A stretch of 64,000 nucleotides of DNA from positions 1,417,421 to 1,481,420 of the forward strand of contig NZ_JAVKGN010000001.1 in assembly GCF_031432215.1 (NCBI RefSeq), in the 5' to 3' direction. This stretch comes from Halodesulfurarchaeum sp. HSR-GB. GTDB lineage: Archaea; Halobacteriota; Halobacteria; Halobacteriales; Halobacteriaceae. The position numbers and the translations under genes were made by a program. Positions 5,443-18,018 of the stretch are shown piece after piece. How positions within the stretch are numbered: position 1 is the first letter of the stretch; the number at the start of each line of letters is the position of its first letter. Under the pieces are notes generated by a model. It saw only the letters and a list, made by a program, of their open reading frames with translations, did not search any database and was not told the origin of the DNA.

Positions 5443-5873
5443 ACGACCGTGGCCAGTCCACTCTCGACTTCCTGCTGGGGATCGTGCTCTTCCTGCTCGC
5501 CGTTACGATGGTCGTCGGGTTCGTGCCCGGGATGCTCGATCCGTTCGTAACCGGAACGGAGGGTCATCCAGTGACCGCGGACCGGGCGGTGTCAACCCTC
5601 ACCAGCGACAAACTGGCGACCGGAGAGTCTCCGTACGTCACGACCCGTGAGCGGGTATGGGCCGTCATCAATGATTCCACCGAGGCTGAACTGGCCACGG
5701 CTCTCGGTGTCGGCAACGGGGCTCGACTCAACGTCACCGTGACGAACCGAACCGCGCCGGTCGAACAGGTCGGCCCGGTCCCACCTGATACGGGGTCGGT
5801 GACGACTGCCCACCGGGTGATATCGATCGACGGCCAGGCGGCGACGGTGACACTCCGGGTGTGGAAACCGTGA
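5439..5873 (+). CDS. Pilin-like membrane protein 1 of the pilus operon
   Basis: The N-terminus reads NDRGQSTLDFLLG, followed by about 20 hydrophobic residues. This is the 'charged residue, short polar link, single helix' layout of archaeal pilin-like proteins. A GTG at 5427 would add four residues (MGFH). I prefer the ATG at 5439 because it forms an ATGA overlap with the preceding stop, matching the spacing in the rest of the operon. The remainder, about 110 residues, is a mostly beta, Thr/Val-rich extracellular-type domain. The role is inferred from position: a minor pilin or pseudopilin. A prepilin peptidase site is not certain. Confidence 0.8.
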   Translation: MNDRGQSTLDFLLGIVLFLLAVTMVVGFVPGMLDPFVTGTEGHPVTADRAVSTLTSDKLATGESPYVTTRERVWAVINDSTEAELATALGVGNGARLNVTVTNRTAPVEQVGPVPPDTGSVTTAHRVISIDGQAATVTLRVWKP

Positions 5874-6490
5874 GCCGGACCGAGCCACGCGAACGGTTCG
5901 GCGACCGCGGCCAGGCCCACGCACTCGAAGGCATCGCGGCTGCCCTCCTGGTGCTGGCCAGTCTCACCTTTGCCCTCCAGGTCACGGCGGTCACGCCATT
6001 GACCGCGAGTACGGCGAGTCAACACCTCCAGACCCAGGGGAGTGGGGTCGCAAACGGCGTCCTGGTGACGGCGGACGAAGCCGAGGAGCTCAGAGAGACC
6101 GTGCTTTACTGGAACGAGAGTGCCAGCCCCCCTCGCTTTCACGACTCCGGGACGAGTGGGACCTACGCCGGAGCACCACCCACTGCGTTCGGGGACCGGC
6201 TCGCCGGGACCCTGGGGGAGACGGGAATGGTCTACAACGTACATCTCAGATACCTCAGTTCGTCGGGCGATCAGCGAGTTCGGACGCTGGTCGATCAAGG
6301 GAACCCATCAGACCAGGCAGTGACCGCCTCCCGGACCGTCGTCCTGTACGACGACGACCAGATCCGGGCCGCAGATGGGTCCCCGACCGACCAAACGGTC
6401 TCGGACGTGTCGGGATACTTCGCCCACGACACCGCTCCGGGTCCGCTTTACAACGTGATTCGTGTGGAGGTGGTCGTATGGCGCGTGTAG
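5870..6490 (+). CDS. Pilin-like membrane protein 2 of the pilus operon
   Basis: About 206 residues. The chosen GTG (5870) overlaps the previous stop as GTGA; another in-frame GTG lies three codons upstream at 5861. The N-terminus is charged (SRTEPRERFGDRGQAHALEG) and runs into a hydrophobic helix 'IAAALLVLASLTFALQV'. The remaining domain is soluble and rich in Ser, Thr and Asp, as expected outside a haloarchaeal cell. The 'DRGQ' before the helix matches the neighbouring gene. It is a likely minor subunit of the pilus; no enzyme motif is visible. Confidence 0.8.
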   Translation: MSRTEPRERFGDRGQAHALEGIAAALLVLASLTFALQVTAVTPLTASTASQHLQTQGSGVANGVLVTADEAEELRETVLYWNESASPPRFHDSGTSGTYAGAPPTAFGDRLAGTLGETGMVYNVHLRYLSSSGDQRVRTLVDQGNPSDQAVTASRTVVLYDDDQIRAADGSPTDQTVSDVSGYFAHDTAPGPLYNVIRVEVVVWRV

Positions 6491-6918
6491 ATCGAGGCGT
6501 TTCGACGGCCGTGGGCTACGTCCTGAACCTCGGGATCGCGACGCTGCTCGTCACGGGACTGCTGGTCGCCGGTTCCGGACTCGTCGCGGACCAGCGGGAG
6601 CGCGCTGCGGGGGCCGAACTGGATGTGATCGGCAATCGAATCGCGGCCGACCTGGAGACGGCTGACCGGCTGGTCCGGAACGGGAATGGCTCAGTGACGG
6701 TCCGCACGTCGCTTCCGAACACCGTCGCTGGCAGCAGCTATCGGGTGGCCATCGAATCGACCGGCGGAAATGCGACGGTGATCGTCTCGACCAACGACCC
6801 GTCTCTCGCCCGCACGGTCCCAGTCGTGAACGAGACGCCGATCCGACCAACGACGGTCAGCGGTGGCTCAATCGTCGTGCGTGGCAATCAAACCGGACTG
6901 GAGGTGACCGATGGATAG
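6478..6918 (+). CDS. Pilin-like membrane protein 3 of the pilus operon
   Basis: 146 residues, overlapping the preceding gene by 13 bases. The start MARVDRGVSTAVGYVLN has the Arg-Gly-Val-Ser then hydrophobic-helix layout seen in haloarchaeal pilins ('R[GA]VS..[IV]G' before the helix). After the helix comes a short beta-rich domain with several Asn-X-Thr/Ser motifs (NGS, NAT, NET), which may be N-glycosylated. It probably contributes a minor pilin or a tip subunit. Confidence 0.8.
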   Translation: MARVDRGVSTAVGYVLNLGIATLLVTGLLVAGSGLVADQRERAAGAELDVIGNRIAADLETADRLVRNGNGSVTVRTSLPNTVAGSSYRVAIESTGGNATVIVSTNDPSLARTVPVVNETPIRPTTVSGGSIVVRGNQTGLEVTDG

Positions 6919-7615
6919 AGCCGTCAGTGACTTGGTTGGCTATGTCCTCATATTCGCGTTGATCACCAGTTCGGTCGCGGTCGTGACCGTCGGGGGGTAC
7001 GACAGTCTGGGCAGCGTCCGTGACGCCGAGCGGTTCGAGAACGCCCAACGTGTCTTTGACGTGCTGGGGACGAACGTCGACGATCACCTCGAATCACACG
7101 TCGAATCCCGCGGCACCGAGATTCGCCTCGCGGACGCCCGTCTCGGGTTCAGTGATCCAGTGACGGTGAACGTCACCGTCGAGGGTGTCGGTTCCAACCA
7201 GACGACGATCGATCCACTCGTGTATACCCAGGGTGCCGACAGACAGATCGCCTATACCGGCGGGGCGGTGCTCCGTGCCGAGGGGGGCGGTGCACTCGTC
7301 ACGACCGGGCCGCCGTTCCGCTTTGGCGATGAAATGATGATCACGATGGTCAAAACGCGGGGTCGAGACCCCGGTATCGCCGGGTCGGGTCGGGTGCTCG
7401 TCCGGACCGAGGCGACCACCCGGTCGACGCATGCCTACACCGACGGCCCCTACACCATCTCCGTCACCGTCAACGATTCCTATCCGGATGCCTGGGAACG
7501 GTGGTTCGAATCAGAGACCGACGAGGACTGTACGGCAACCGGTGGGACCGTTACCTGTGACGGAGTCGAGTCGGTGTACGTCCGGACTGTCGCGATCGAC
7601 ATCTACCTCGAGTGA
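6911..7615 (+). CDS. Pilin-like membrane protein 4 of the pilus operon
   Basis: 234 residues, overlapping the preceding gene by 8 bases. The start MDRAVSDLVGYVLIFAL again has the RAVS plus helix signature of haloarchaeal pilin-type proteins. The extracellular domain contains Asn-X-Ser/Thr sites and, near the C-terminus, two Cys ('EDCTATGGTVTCDG') placed for a disulfide, which is unusual for a haloarchaeal protein and suggests a structured external domain. It is the last gene of the operon; the next gene converges and ends at the adjacent base. Confidence 0.8.
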   Translation: MDRAVSDLVGYVLIFALITSSVAVVTVGGYDSLGSVRDAERFENAQRVFDVLGTNVDDHLESHVESRGTEIRLADARLGFSDPVTVNVTVEGVGSNQTTIDPLVYTQGADRQIAYTGGAVLRAEGGGALVTTGPPFRFGDEMMITMVKTRGRDPGIAGSGRVLVRTEATTRSTHAYTDGPYTISVTVNDSYPDAWERWFESETDEDCTATGGTVTCDGVESVYVRTVAIDIYLE

Positions 7616-8092
7616 TCACTCGGTGCTCTCGGCCTGCGTGAGGGCGTCCTCAAAGGTTGTTTCGGGAAAGAGGCCCCGAACCTCGGGGTACCCAAGTGTG
7701 CGGATCAACGCGTCTGCGGACCCGGTTACCAGCAGGACGCCCATCTCTTCGGCGTTCTCGGCGACGCTGAGCCGTTCGTCCGAAGCGATCCGGTCTTCGA
7801 ACGTGGCTGCGGCCTCGCCCAGTAACTCCTGCTCGGCCGCGTACAGTTGCTGTTGTGCCTCGGTCTGGTTGAGCGACCCGTTCTGGAGCTGTTCGGAGAG
7901 CGAGGTCTGTTTTTCCTGGAGTGTCTCTTGGTCGATTTCAAGCGCGATGGTGACCGTGGCCGACCCGTCACCCTGTTCGTCCGTGGCTGCCTGACCGTCC
8001 GACGGTACGGGTGCGCTACAGCCGGCGATCGACAAGGTGAGTCCAGTACCCGCAGTCTGGAGGAAACGGCGACGATTCGTTCGAAGTTCCAT
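7616..8092 (-). CDS. Tat-exported lipoprotein, function unknown
   Basis: 158 residues. The N-terminus carries a twin-arginine signal (TNRRRFLQT) and a lipobox-like 'SIAGC' at about residues 21-25, so the mature protein should be lipid-anchored outside the cell after Tat export, the usual route in haloarchaea. The mature part has a Gln/Glu-rich predicted coiled coil (about residues 50-95, 'LQEKQTSLSEQLQNG') and then a short alpha/beta region. No enzyme motif is visible. It converges with the pilus operon without a gap, and its promoter faces the divergent surface protein gene. Confidence 0.75.
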   Translation of the reverse strand: MELRTNRRRFLQTAGTGLTLSIAGCSAPVPSDGQAATDEQGDGSATVTIALEIDQETLQEKQTSLSEQLQNGSLNQTEAQQQLYAAEQELLGEAAATFEDRIASDERLSVAENAEEMGVLLVTGSADALIRTLGYPEVRGLFPETTFEDALTQAESTE

Positions 8093-8189: not shown

Positions 8190-9689
8190 ATGCCAGAGGG
8201 GCGATCGATCACGGCACTCGTCGTCTTGCTCGTCACGCTTTTGATGGTCGTGAGCCTCGTCCCCGTTGCTGGCGCCGCAGACTCGCCCCGAATCCAGGTT
8301 TCGGTCAACGAGGACCCGATCGAAGACGGTGAGTGGATCGTCGTCGACGAGTCGAACTTCTCGATCGGGGTTTCGGCAAACGACACGATCGAATCGATCG
8401 TGGTTCGGGTGAACGACCGAGACGTCGTGGAGGCCACCCCGGAGGGTCGAACGTACCAGACGAACCTGGTGGCCCCACTGACTGCCCGGTGGAATACCGT
8501 TCAGGTGGTCGCCACGACCACGTCGGGCACACTCTCGACACATCAGTTCAAGATCTACAAGGACACGATCGCACCCGAAATTGGGCTCACCAGTCCCGTC
8601 TCCGTCGAGGCTGGGCACCGATTTCCCGACGAGACCCGACTCACGGACGGGGCCATCAACCTGACCGGCACCGTCGAGGACACCTCGAATGTCACTGACT
8701 TCTCCGCGACGCTCAGCGGGGCCGGCCAGTCGGTCGAACTCACGAACCACTCGAATGGCAGGTTCGACCTCAACACCACCCTCGCCCCCGGGAATCACAC
8801 GCTCAGCGTTCGTGCGACCGACGAATACGGAAACGAGGTGCGGCGGTTCACCCGACTCCGAGTGATCGACGAGGACGACCCAAGCGTCTCGATCCGCGAC
8901 TGGCCGACGAATACGAGTGCCGACGCCATTGCGCCCACCGCCGTGGCGACTGACGATATCGCCGTTCGCTCGCTCTCGTACCGTGTCTCCGGCCAGCCAG
9001 AGCGAACAGTCATCGAACCCACGAGTCGGTTGCTCGGGGCCGGCCGGACGAACGTCAATCGATCGATTCCCATCGAGTTCTACCGGGCCGGGACCTACGA
9101 GGTAACCTTCAACGTGACCGACTATGCCGGTCGCTACACCACGCTCACGAAGGAACTCAGGTACGACCCCGTCACGCCCGAGGAACGTGCTGCCCCCGAG
9201 ATCACCGTTCACGAGAACCGGTCCGGGCTCGTGAACGAGACGTTGTACCACCTCGAAGCGAGTGTCGATAACGGGTCGATCGAGCGTGTCGTCCTCGAAG
9301 CCGCCAGCAACCGATCCGGCCGGGTCACGGCGTACGAACGAGTTTACGACGGAAACGCGACCACAACCGTCTCGGTGCGGCAGAACCTGACACTCGCGTC
9401 TGGAGTAACCGATCTCACACTCAATGCGACGGATTCCGTCGGTGAGGAACACACGGTCACGTGGCAGGTAGATCTCGAAACTACCCGCCCCTATCGAACG
9501 ACGGCGTCGGGGAGCCCGACTACCGACGAGGATTCGACGGTGCGAACATCGCCGCAGCCCACCGAAATTTCAGTTACCGAACCGACACCATTGGCTCCGG
9601 TCACGGAGACGAAAGCGCCAATATCGCCCGTGCTGACCGGTGTGGCACTCTTGCTCGTGAGTGGTCTCCTGGTTCGCTGGTTCCGCTAA
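8190..9689 (+). CDS. Membrane-anchored surface protein with Ig-like repeats
   Basis: 499 residues. A Sec-type signal peptide occupies about residues 1-29 (ends 'VPVAGAADS'). A series of beta-sandwich-like modules of about 90-100 residues follows, with recurring 'VRATDEYGNEV', 'FNVTDYAGRYT' and 'LNATDSVGEEHT' strands, typical of bacterial/archaeal Ig-like surface repeats, and many Asn-X-Ser/Thr sites. A Thr/Ser/Pro-rich stalk (about 425-475) and one C-terminal helix with a short basic tail (LLVRWFR) anchor it. A TATA-like 'ttttaac' at about 8154-8160 gives a short leader. It may be an adhesion or cell-wall component; its ligand is unknown. Confidence 0.75.
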   Translation: MPEGRSITALVVLLVTLLMVVSLVPVAGAADSPRIQVSVNEDPIEDGEWIVVDESNFSIGVSANDTIESIVVRVNDRDVVEATPEGRTYQTNLVAPLTARWNTVQVVATTTSGTLSTHQFKIYKDTIAPEIGLTSPVSVEAGHRFPDETRLTDGAINLTGTVEDTSNVTDFSATLSGAGQSVELTNHSNGRFDLNTTLAPGNHTLSVRATDEYGNEVRRFTRLRVIDEDDPSVSIRDWPTNTSADAIAPTAVATDDIAVRSLSYRVSGQPERTVIEPTSRLLGAGRTNVNRSIPIEFYRAGTYEVTFNVTDYAGRYTTLTKELRYDPVTPEERAAPEITVHENRSGLVNETLYHLEASVDNGSIERVVLEAASNRSGRVTAYERVYDGNATTTVSVRQNLTLASGVTDLTLNATDSVGEEHTVTWQVDLETTRPYRTTASGSPTTDEDSTVRTSPQPTEISVTEPTPLAPVTETKAPISPVLTGVALLLVSGLLVRWFR

Positions 9690-9710: not shown

Positions 9711-9727
9711 GAAAAGTGTTAAGTTCC
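9711..9727 (+). promoter_or_regulatory. Archaeal promoter (BRE/TATA-like) for the structured RNA
   Basis: A purine-rich 'gaaaa' (9711-9715), which could be a BRE, is followed by a TATA-like 'gtgttaag' (9716-9723), about 27 bases before the 5' end of the long terminal helix at 9748. Spacing and composition match haloarchaeal promoters. The box is weak, so confidence is moderate. Confidence 0.45.
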
Positions 9728-9747
9728 TAACTGGCATAGTGTAACAT

Positions 9748-10154
9748 CCCCCAAGAGAGTCGCGGGGGTACGCTGGTCGCCACGTTCCGGATCGAAACGC
9801 GAAACGGAACGCGGTAGGGGCCACAACCAAAGCGTCCGTCACAGGGCGGCAAGGTCACAGGTCCCGAAGGAGAACCACACCGACCCAGCTTCGACCGCCA
9901 TGGCGGTCGAATGAGAAGGCCGAGTACCGGAGTACGCGAAAGCGGACTTCGGGAATCGATGACGGCCGGTGAAAATCCGGTTCGTTAGCTCGGGACCGAA
10001 TCGAATCGAGCCGACCCCGTTCCTTTGAACGGGACCGGCGAGGTTCGAGCGCCCGAGTTGGCAAGACCGGATCGACTCCGGGTTTCCGTCGTCGTGCGCC
10101 GTACGGGTCGGGGACAACGTCTCCCGTCCAGGCCCAAGCCGTGACTTTCTGGGG
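9748..10154 (+). ncRNA. Large structured non-coding RNA candidate (about 405 nt), family unknown
   Basis: No credible protein is encoded in this stretch, but it folds strongly. The two ends pair: 9749-9764 with 10140-10154, about 14-15 pairs with one bulged A at 9754 and G-U pairs at 9757/10147 and 9762/10142, which fit plus-strand transcription better than minus. Internal hairpins include 9771-9777/9826-9834, 9783-9789/9805-9811, a 10-bp stem 9890-9899/9902-9911, 9924-9927/9932-9935, a GAAA-capped stem 9935-9944, 9966-9969/9977-9980 and 10016-10022/10027-10033. The 3' end is followed by 'gggttttcg'. It lacks SRP signatures (present at 17.7 kb) and the RNase P GGAAAGUCC and ACAGAA boxes. The end points and plus orientation are inferred from folding. 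Confidence 0.55.
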
Positions 10155-10182
10155 TTTTCGACCCGTTAGTTATGTAGCGGAG

Positions 10183-17704: not shown

Positions 17705-18018
17705 AGGTGGACTAGGCCGGGCGGTTTGGCCCCGCCCTTCGCCCGCACCATGGTCATTAGCGGGGGCCGAACGCCGAGGGCGTCCGGACAGACCGGTCCG
17801 GACCCCGGAAGCCGACAGCGAAGCCTCGTCCTTCGGGGACACCGGCTTGCGGGTCACCCCTGCAGGGGGGTCGATACCGCGACTTGTCGGTGGCAACCCG
17901 TCAGGCACGGAAGTGAGCAGCGGACCACCGAACGGGCGTCGCTCGAAGGGTCACGGGGTGGAGGAGGCGACCGGGACTATCCGGGTCGGAACGCCGGGCC
18001 ACCTCGGCCCGTCCACCT
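17705..18018 (+). ncRNA. ffs: Signal recognition particle RNA (7S RNA)
   Basis: The ends pair as helix 1: AGGTGGAC (17705-17712) with GTCCACCT (18011-18018). Just inside are 'taggcc' and 'ggccc'. The 5' domain contains the paired 'ggcggtttggcc' / 'cgcccttcgcccg' elements of the Alu-like fold. The S domain contains the diagnostic helix 8 element 'GTCAGGCACGGAAGTGAGCAG' split at 17900-17920 (a GGAA loop flanked by the asymmetric bulge bases), which binds SRP54. The length of about 314 nt matches haloarchaeal 7S RNA (about 300). It is followed by 'tattcatct', a weak T-rich end, before the convergent MscS gene. Confidence 0.92.

Follow-up and report, generated by a model that had tools for sequence, protein, structure and literature searches.

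A structured RNA family genomically linked to the protein-only RNase P HARP in halophilic archaea

Introduction

The 64,000-nucleotide stretch of the Halodesulfurarchaeum sp. HSR-GB genome analysed here (the window) holds an interval of about 400 nt between a surface-protein gene and a tRNA-Thr gene, which the original prediction read as an unassigned structured RNA. We asked whether this RNA is real, whether it belongs to a family, and which partner it might have. Large, complex and conserved non-coding RNAs without an obvious protein product, such as OLE, GOLLD, ROOL and raiA, are known from bacteria. The annotated genome of Haloferax gibbonsii lists only 7S RNA, RNase P RNA and one H/ACA guide RNA as non-coding RNAs (PMC7921747). 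We found no description of the present RNA in the open-access literature on haloarchaeal structured RNAs or on HARP; one may exist outside it, for instance as an sRNA entered without a name in a table of RNA-seq results.

HARP, the protein to which our results lead, forms oligomers up to dodecamers. In the proposed mechanism, one dimer grips the elbow of the tRNA with a spike-helix, and the cut at the 5' end is made by the next dimer (PMC8266387, PMC10941002). All HARP-carrying archaea also possess an RNA-based RNase P, deletion of HARP had no growth effect in Haloferax volcanii or Methanosarcina mazei, and its job in archaea is an open question (PMC10941002, PMC12153264). A link between HARP and the ligase Rnl3 was reported in 2025 by Seshadri and Gopalan, without any RNA (PMC12153264).

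Results

The window encodes a structured RNA on its plus strand

The plus strand of window interval 9744–10160 folded with a minimum free energy of −217.8 kcal/mol, lower than every one of 100 dinucleotide shuffles (z = −8.4), whereas the minus strand gave a z of only −2.6. The original prediction had therefore called the RNA on the right strand. Its claim that no protein frame is present also held: plus-strand ORFs of at least 60 amino acids were absent within the interval, and the ORFs found there lay on the minus strand. The proposed terminal helix (9749–9764 with 10140–10154) reappeared in the predicted fold at about 9749–9765/10139–10154, and its counterpart in relatives shows compensatory changes. 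The proposed transcription signals fared less well. The TATA-like box is weak taken alone, although a comparable A/T-rich element precedes the RNA of relatives by about as much, and the 3' T-run is there (TTTT at 10155–10158) but is short and weak.

Searching Rfam 15, as the original prediction had advised, yielded no family match; at the gathering score or E ≤ 10, only the neighbouring tRNA-type match and sub-threshold chance matches appeared over the window RNA. Archaeal RNase P RNA (RF00373) gave no match at E ≤ 10, and neither the archaeal SRP RNA model (RF01857) nor the cobalamin riboswitch model matched. The true RNase P RNA is a separate gene elsewhere in the same genome (164 bits), and the archaeal SRP (7S) RNA gene, the known large RNA of the window, lies at 17705–18018 on the plus strand (190.6 bits). 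A lack of conservation in relatives or of covarying pairs had been named as grounds for abandoning the prediction; homologues were found, and covariation was strong. With the folding score and the missing Rfam family, these results support the reading as an unassigned plus-strand RNA of about 400 nt: 9748–10154 is the gene of a real, undescribed family of structured non-coding RNA. Its parts in the window are as follows.

9717–9724, plus strand: TATA-like promoter element tgttaag, about 25–30 nt 5' of the RNA (consensus reading; A/T-rich counterpart in relatives)
9748–10154, plus strand: whole RNA, long form of the HARP-associated RNA (z −8.4; covariance-model match of 93.9 bits; homologues in 111 of 392 genomes)
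9749–9765, plus strand: 5' arm of terminal helix P0, pairing with 10139–10154 (fold and compensatory changes)
9766–9779, plus strand: P1a (9766–9769), a linker, and the P1 5' arm CUGGUCG (9773–9779)
9783–9811, plus strand: P2 hairpin (predicted fold; hairpin at this place in relatives)
9817–9865, plus strand: P4 (9817–9822/9860–9865 and 9826–9828/9853–9855) enclosing P3 (9833–9837/9844–9848) (covariation, helices 1–3)
9866–9879, plus strand: conserved unpaired strand GAAGGAGAACCACA (near-invariant GAAGGAGAACCG in relatives)
9880–9886, plus strand: 5' arm of long-range helix P6, pairing with 10105–10111 (covariation, helix 4)
9890–9911, plus strand: P5 hairpin (covariation, helix 5)
9916–9926, plus strand: conserved AAGGCCGAGUA, including the P7 5' arm GGC(C), which pairs with about 10098–10100 (covariation, helix 6)
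9927–9952, plus strand: P8 hairpin capped by a GAAA tetraloop at 9938–9941 (covariation, helix 7)
9964–9982, plus strand: T-loop hairpin GGCCGG-UGAAAAU-CCGGUU, a tRNA T-arm mimic (T-loop pattern scan)
10019–10035, plus strand: second hairpin with a 7-nt T-loop-like loop, GUUCC-UUUGAAC-GGGAC (T-loop pattern scan)
10067–10081, plus strand: degenerate third copy CCGG-AUCGACU-CCGG (aligned with the canonical CCCGG-UGNRANY-CCGGG of relatives)
10105–10111, plus strand: P6 3' arm (covariation, helix 4)
10112–10131, plus strand: most conserved block GGACAACGUCUCCCGUCCAG, an unpaired part followed by the P1 3' arm (conservation in relatives)
10125–10131 and 10132–10135, plus strand: partners of P1 and P1a, respectively (compensatory P1 pairs across the family)
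10139–10154, plus strand: P0 3' arm (fold and compensatory changes)
10155–10158, plus strand: short T-run 3' of the terminal helix (read from the letters; weak)

The surface-protein gene and the tRNA-Thr gene are incidental neighbours; a link to either was rejected, since the RNA has them at its side in the window's own genus only. The tRNA-Thr gene is convergent and 40 relatives had no conserved downstream gene, in line with the earlier remark that nothing downstream could be regulated. Upstream of the 499-residue surface-type ORF at 8190–9689, a run of short ORFs (5861–7615, plus strand) has beginnings such as MARVDRGVSTAVGYVLNLGIATLLVTG that, judged by eye, recall archaeal type IV pilins or secreted proteins. 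Members of a family of small twin-arginine-type lipoprotein ORFs (RRFLQxAGTG...SIAGCSA) were seen within about 2.3 kb of the RNA at three loci of different genera (L105, L130 and window 7616–8092, minus strand); this may be chance.

Covarying helices close the RNA on itself

The structure was drawn by hand from 28 sequences (alignment A1), and its pairs were then counted. The 5' and 3' ends are paired by P0, P1a and P1, which form a terminal helix broken by a 3-nt bulge. Inside it lie P2, P4 enclosing P3, and the conserved single strand GAAGGAGAACCG, followed by the long-range helix P6 that encloses P5, and by P7 enclosing the GNRA-capped P8 and P9. Short forms measure about 260–270 nt; long forms, including that of the window (about 400 nt), carry extra hairpins at P9. 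The window RNA has the P6/P7/P8 core with the AAGRCCAAGUA and GGAAAACGUCUC strands (models R1–R3, 93.9 bits), as well as the terminal helix joining both ends.

Across the 28 sequences, 88.0% of the cells of internal pairs were paired, compared with 71.9% in shuffles, and the covariation score was 0.476 against 0.196. Changes on both sides occurred in 38 of the 48 internal pairs, spread over eight internal helices. Controls with slid partners reached 31–45% of cells paired, a comparison that favours the structure because it was derived from the same sequences; compensatory changes were still far above the shuffles (232 vs 81 cells). For the terminal helix we used an anchored test, with P1 strings copied by hand. 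P0, P1a and P1 were 86%, 97% and 97% paired, while the maxima in 2000 shuffles were 81%, 91% and 90%. P1 occurs as CCGGACG/CGUCCGG, CUGGACG/CGUCCAG, CCGAACG/CGUUCGG, CCAGCCG/CGGCUGG, CUGGGUG/CACCCAG and others; the window version has a single mismatch, U9777–U10127. When P1 was sought without an anchor, as the best match anywhere within 145 nt, own and foreign tails alike yielded 7-mers, and the search did not discriminate.

Three other readings of the structure were discarded. A kink-turn at the P3/P4 internal loop misfits the sequence of some members, a local CUCC-GAA-GGAG hairpin was superseded by the covarying GGAGC/GCUCC helix (P4), and a local ACGGG/CCCGU hairpin at the 3' end gave way to the long-range P6 and P1, both of which covary.

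Long forms carry T-loop hairpins

Scanning 46 RNAs for a 7-nt loop U[GU]NRANY on at least four pairs detected 21 T-loop hairpins, where composition shuffles predict 0.8; the antisense strand had none. One or two are present in each of thirteen scanned long forms, among them the window RNA. Canonical T-loops are confined to the long forms; in short forms, including those of Haloferax, another hairpin occupies the position, and one of the 21 sits elsewhere, in P5 of Haloferax. Many follow GG-UGNRANY-CC, which comes within one step of GG-UUCRANY-CC, the T-arm of tRNA. This arm belongs to the tRNA elbow, the proposed binding site of HARP. The original prediction had pointed to a weakly cobalamin-like stretch. 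The letters CCGG-UGAAAAU-CCGG at 9966–9980 are real, but the likeness is not homology, and the stretch is better read as one that would fold into a T-loop hairpin. T-loop modules of tRNA, RNase P RNA, T-box and cobalamin riboswitches share the 7-nt UGNRANY loop closed by GG/CC; here, in contrast, one or several such hairpins lie inside a free-standing RNA, and the likeness is one of sequence pattern.

The family occurs across the order and beyond

BLAST located partial homologues of the window RNA in relatives. With at most one mismatch allowed, 50 of the 293 genomes searched in the order contain the 3' motif GGRMAACGTCTCCCGTCC, with 1 occurrence of the reversed-pattern control among the matches listed. 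Most motif matches carry the remainder of the element; some lone ones are chance. Carriers of the exact motif include Haloferax (many species), Haladaptatus, Halorussus, Halosimplex, Halorarius, Halorubellus, Haloglomus and others. When 392 genomes of the order were searched with covariance model R1, calibrated briefly like the other models, 111 of them, from 42 of 95 genera, proved to carry the RNA, a few in two copies. It occurs throughout the Haloferax genomes sampled, which belong to species related to H. volcanii.

A search of the phylum revealed three carriers outside the order, G400 and G409 in one family and G418 in another, whose RNAs had no Rfam match either. Their P1 uses different pairs to form the same helix. 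Aligned with the haloarchaeal members, they gave 91.9% of cells paired and a covariation score of 0.518 vs 0.204. The broader model R3 added no further carriers, and a very weak match outside the known carriers (G456) was judged chance. A viral or phage origin was rejected: the exact motif was absent from IMG/VR viral contigs, and the RNA had no phage matches.

Some copies are arranged unusually. Genome G201 has two in tandem on the same strand, about 440 nt apart (L123, 8065–8208 and 8509–8651). Two plasmids of Natrinema sp. SYSU A 869 (NZ_CP082247.1 and NZ_CP082248.1; L255 and L256) carry unannotated partial matches with 69–71% identity over about 130 nt, and one of these megaplasmid copies lies among transposases.

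The RNA and HARP come and go together

Clustering of the genes around 40 RNA copies showed one gene family recurrently adjoining the RNA, namely TIGR03875/PF08745, a PINc ribonuclease annotated as "RNA ligase partner". By its sequence, this neighbour is HARP, the protein-only RNase P. The window genome encodes HARP (G000:C1:1041528-1042139) beside the Rnl3 ligase (TIGR01209), and the protein matches PDB entries for "RNA-free ribonuclease P" with E-values down to 2e-37.

In the 392 genomes, with HARP absence scored by TIGR03875 alone, 103 had both RNA and HARP, 8 the RNA only, 59 HARP only, and 222 neither (odds ratio of 48; Fisher p = 1e-41 for genomes that are not independent). Because of this dependence, the link was also tested within genera, from tables assembled by hand. 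In the 13 varying genera, both were present in 31 genomes vs 18.2 expected (p = 1.2e-11), and no genus contained both kinds of discordance. The Halorussus sample comprised 5 genomes with both, 13 with neither and 0 discordant, and HARP is encoded by each of the three RNA carriers outside the order. Six of the eight RNA-only genomes are less than 90% complete.

The RNA model match lies 77–298 nt from HARP in at least 16 genomes. Halorussus and Haladaptatus have the two in divergent orientation, and two other genera have them convergent. Clusters that include the ligase run HARP–ligase–RNA in G094 and RNA–HARP–ligase in G035. The window's genome and Haloferax have the RNA and HARP far apart, and the Haloferax RNA locus lies beside an inositol-monophosphatase gene. 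Four of the 59 HARP genomes without an R1 match, all four with HARP and ligase, contain divergent copies (G207, G388, G290 and G219). A second model, R2, applied to 40 of the R1-negative HARP genomes, recovered two clear copies (G290 and G219) and gave no convincing match in 40 HARP-negative controls. So few recoveries imply that HARP probably works without the RNA as well, and the remaining R1-negative HARP genomes may truly lack it.

The link runs through HARP, not through its ligase

When Rnl3 was included, the 392 genomes fell into HARP with RNA and ligase (58), HARP with RNA (45), HARP with ligase (58) and none of the three (221). HARP was alone in 1 genome (a partial match in an 85% complete assembly), the RNA in 8, and the ligase in 1 (a fragment in a 61% complete assembly). 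In the whole-family listing, 115 of 116 ligase genomes have HARP. The RNA is present in 45 of the 46 HARP genomes without a HARP-linked Rnl3, and in 161 of 162 genomes HARP is accompanied by at least one of RNA and ligase. These counts tie the RNA to HARP and not to the ligase; a link made through the ligase was rejected on account of the 45 ligase-less HARP genomes with the RNA.

The ligase itself showed some irregularities. In two genomes of the same genus (G151 C1:2159049-2160188 and G349 C8:75916-77070), the match of Rnl3 to its family is split in two by a gap within a single open frame, where an insertion may be present. The Rnl3 frame beside HARP and the RNA in G035 (L125) contains a single in-frame TAG stop.

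Discussion

The RNA is genomically linked to HARP, and its covarying architecture is closed by its paired 5' and 3' ends. We consider it more probable than any other reading, at roughly 0.6, that the RNA is a dedicated partner of HARP in halophilic archaea. In such a partnership the HARP oligomer would bind the RNA, which we regard as probable. Tentatively, the tRNA-imitating elements, that is, the T-loop hairpins and the long terminal helix, may hold the RNA on the elbow-binding spike helices of HARP. With somewhat less assurance, we suggest that the chief role of the RNA could be that of a regulator or scaffold, which by occupying the oligomer would restrain the nuclease or redirect it, with Rnl3 repairing or closing the RNA ends where it is present. 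The RNA may be a regulator, a scaffold or a substrate. HARP in halophilic archaea might be a ribonucleoprotein, with a 260–400 nt RNA bearing T-arm mimics as a standing partner that sets its cuts or shields tRNA; we hold this open as a real possibility, short of an expectation.

The RNA could instead be the main substrate of HARP, its 5' or terminal-helix end trimmed like a pre-tRNA and its ends joined into a circle by Rnl3 where present, with the mature RNA serving separately. A conserved helix that holds the ends together is a natural layout for end processing and circularisation, HARP and Rnl3 have been proposed to mature and circularise RNAs, in that case C/D box sRNAs (PMC12153264), and the RNA and HARP are lost together. 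We nevertheless find this unlikely: 45 of the 46 ligase-less HARP genomes keep the RNA, so circularisation by Rnl3 is not its purpose, a separate role predicts persistence without HARP more often than in 8 of 111 genomes, and no leader or tRNA-like cleavage site was found.

The presence of at least one of two possible guards, the RNA or the ligase, in 161 of the 162 HARP genomes brings to mind a toxin–antitoxin-like module, with the PIN nuclease as toxin, the tRNA-mimicking RNA as antitoxin and the ligase as repair antidote. The patchy distribution, the tRNA T-arm mimics and the tie of HARP to toxin–antitoxin origins (PMC6380272, PMC12153264) would fit. However, known RNA antitoxins are much smaller and less conserved than this RNA, which usually does not adjoin the putative toxin gene and is present across whole genera such as Haloferax, so we give this arrangement a low chance. 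An independent halophile ribozyme or ribonucleoprotein, covarying with HARP only through a common lifestyle or joint horizontal transfer, seems improbable. All carriers found belong to halophile-type lineages and two copies sit on Natrinema megaplasmids, but matching is tight within single genera, adjacency recurs in varied orders and orientations, and most copies are single, chromosomal in their sequence context and away from mobile genes in the neighbourhoods read. Finally, despite the resemblance of CCGGUGAAAAUCCGG to a cobalamin riboswitch element, a cis-regulatory leader or cobalamin-like riboswitch of a downstream gene is hardly credible for an RNA with no Rfam cobalamin match, no conserved downstream gene, a convergent tRNA gene behind it and a structure that closes on itself.

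The dedicated-partner reading can be set beside known systems. The new RNA resembles archaeal RNase P RNA (RF00373) in being a large structured RNA with T-loop modules, a long-range core and a partner system that acts on tRNA 5' ends; RNase P RNA is, however, encoded by a separate gene, and the new RNA has no Rfam match and a protein companion regarded as RNA-free. It is like OLE, GOLLD, ROOL and raiA in its size, complexity, conservation and lack of an obvious protein product, but it has no sequence or family relation to them (no Rfam match), is archaeal, and comes with a strong candidate protein partner. The HARP–Rnl3 pair (PMC12153264), the same two families, co-occurring and often neighbouring, was reproduced here; the difference is a third component, an RNA that tracks HARP even without the ligase.

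Since the RNA and HARP come and go together, the RNA is a strong lead to the function of archaeal HARP and a concrete molecule to seek in HARP complexes. Its presence throughout the sampled Haloferax, a genus with good genetics, makes the question testable. If the partnership is true, another large structured RNA family would join the few known in archaea, and the "RNA-free" label would come into question for part of the HARP enzyme family.
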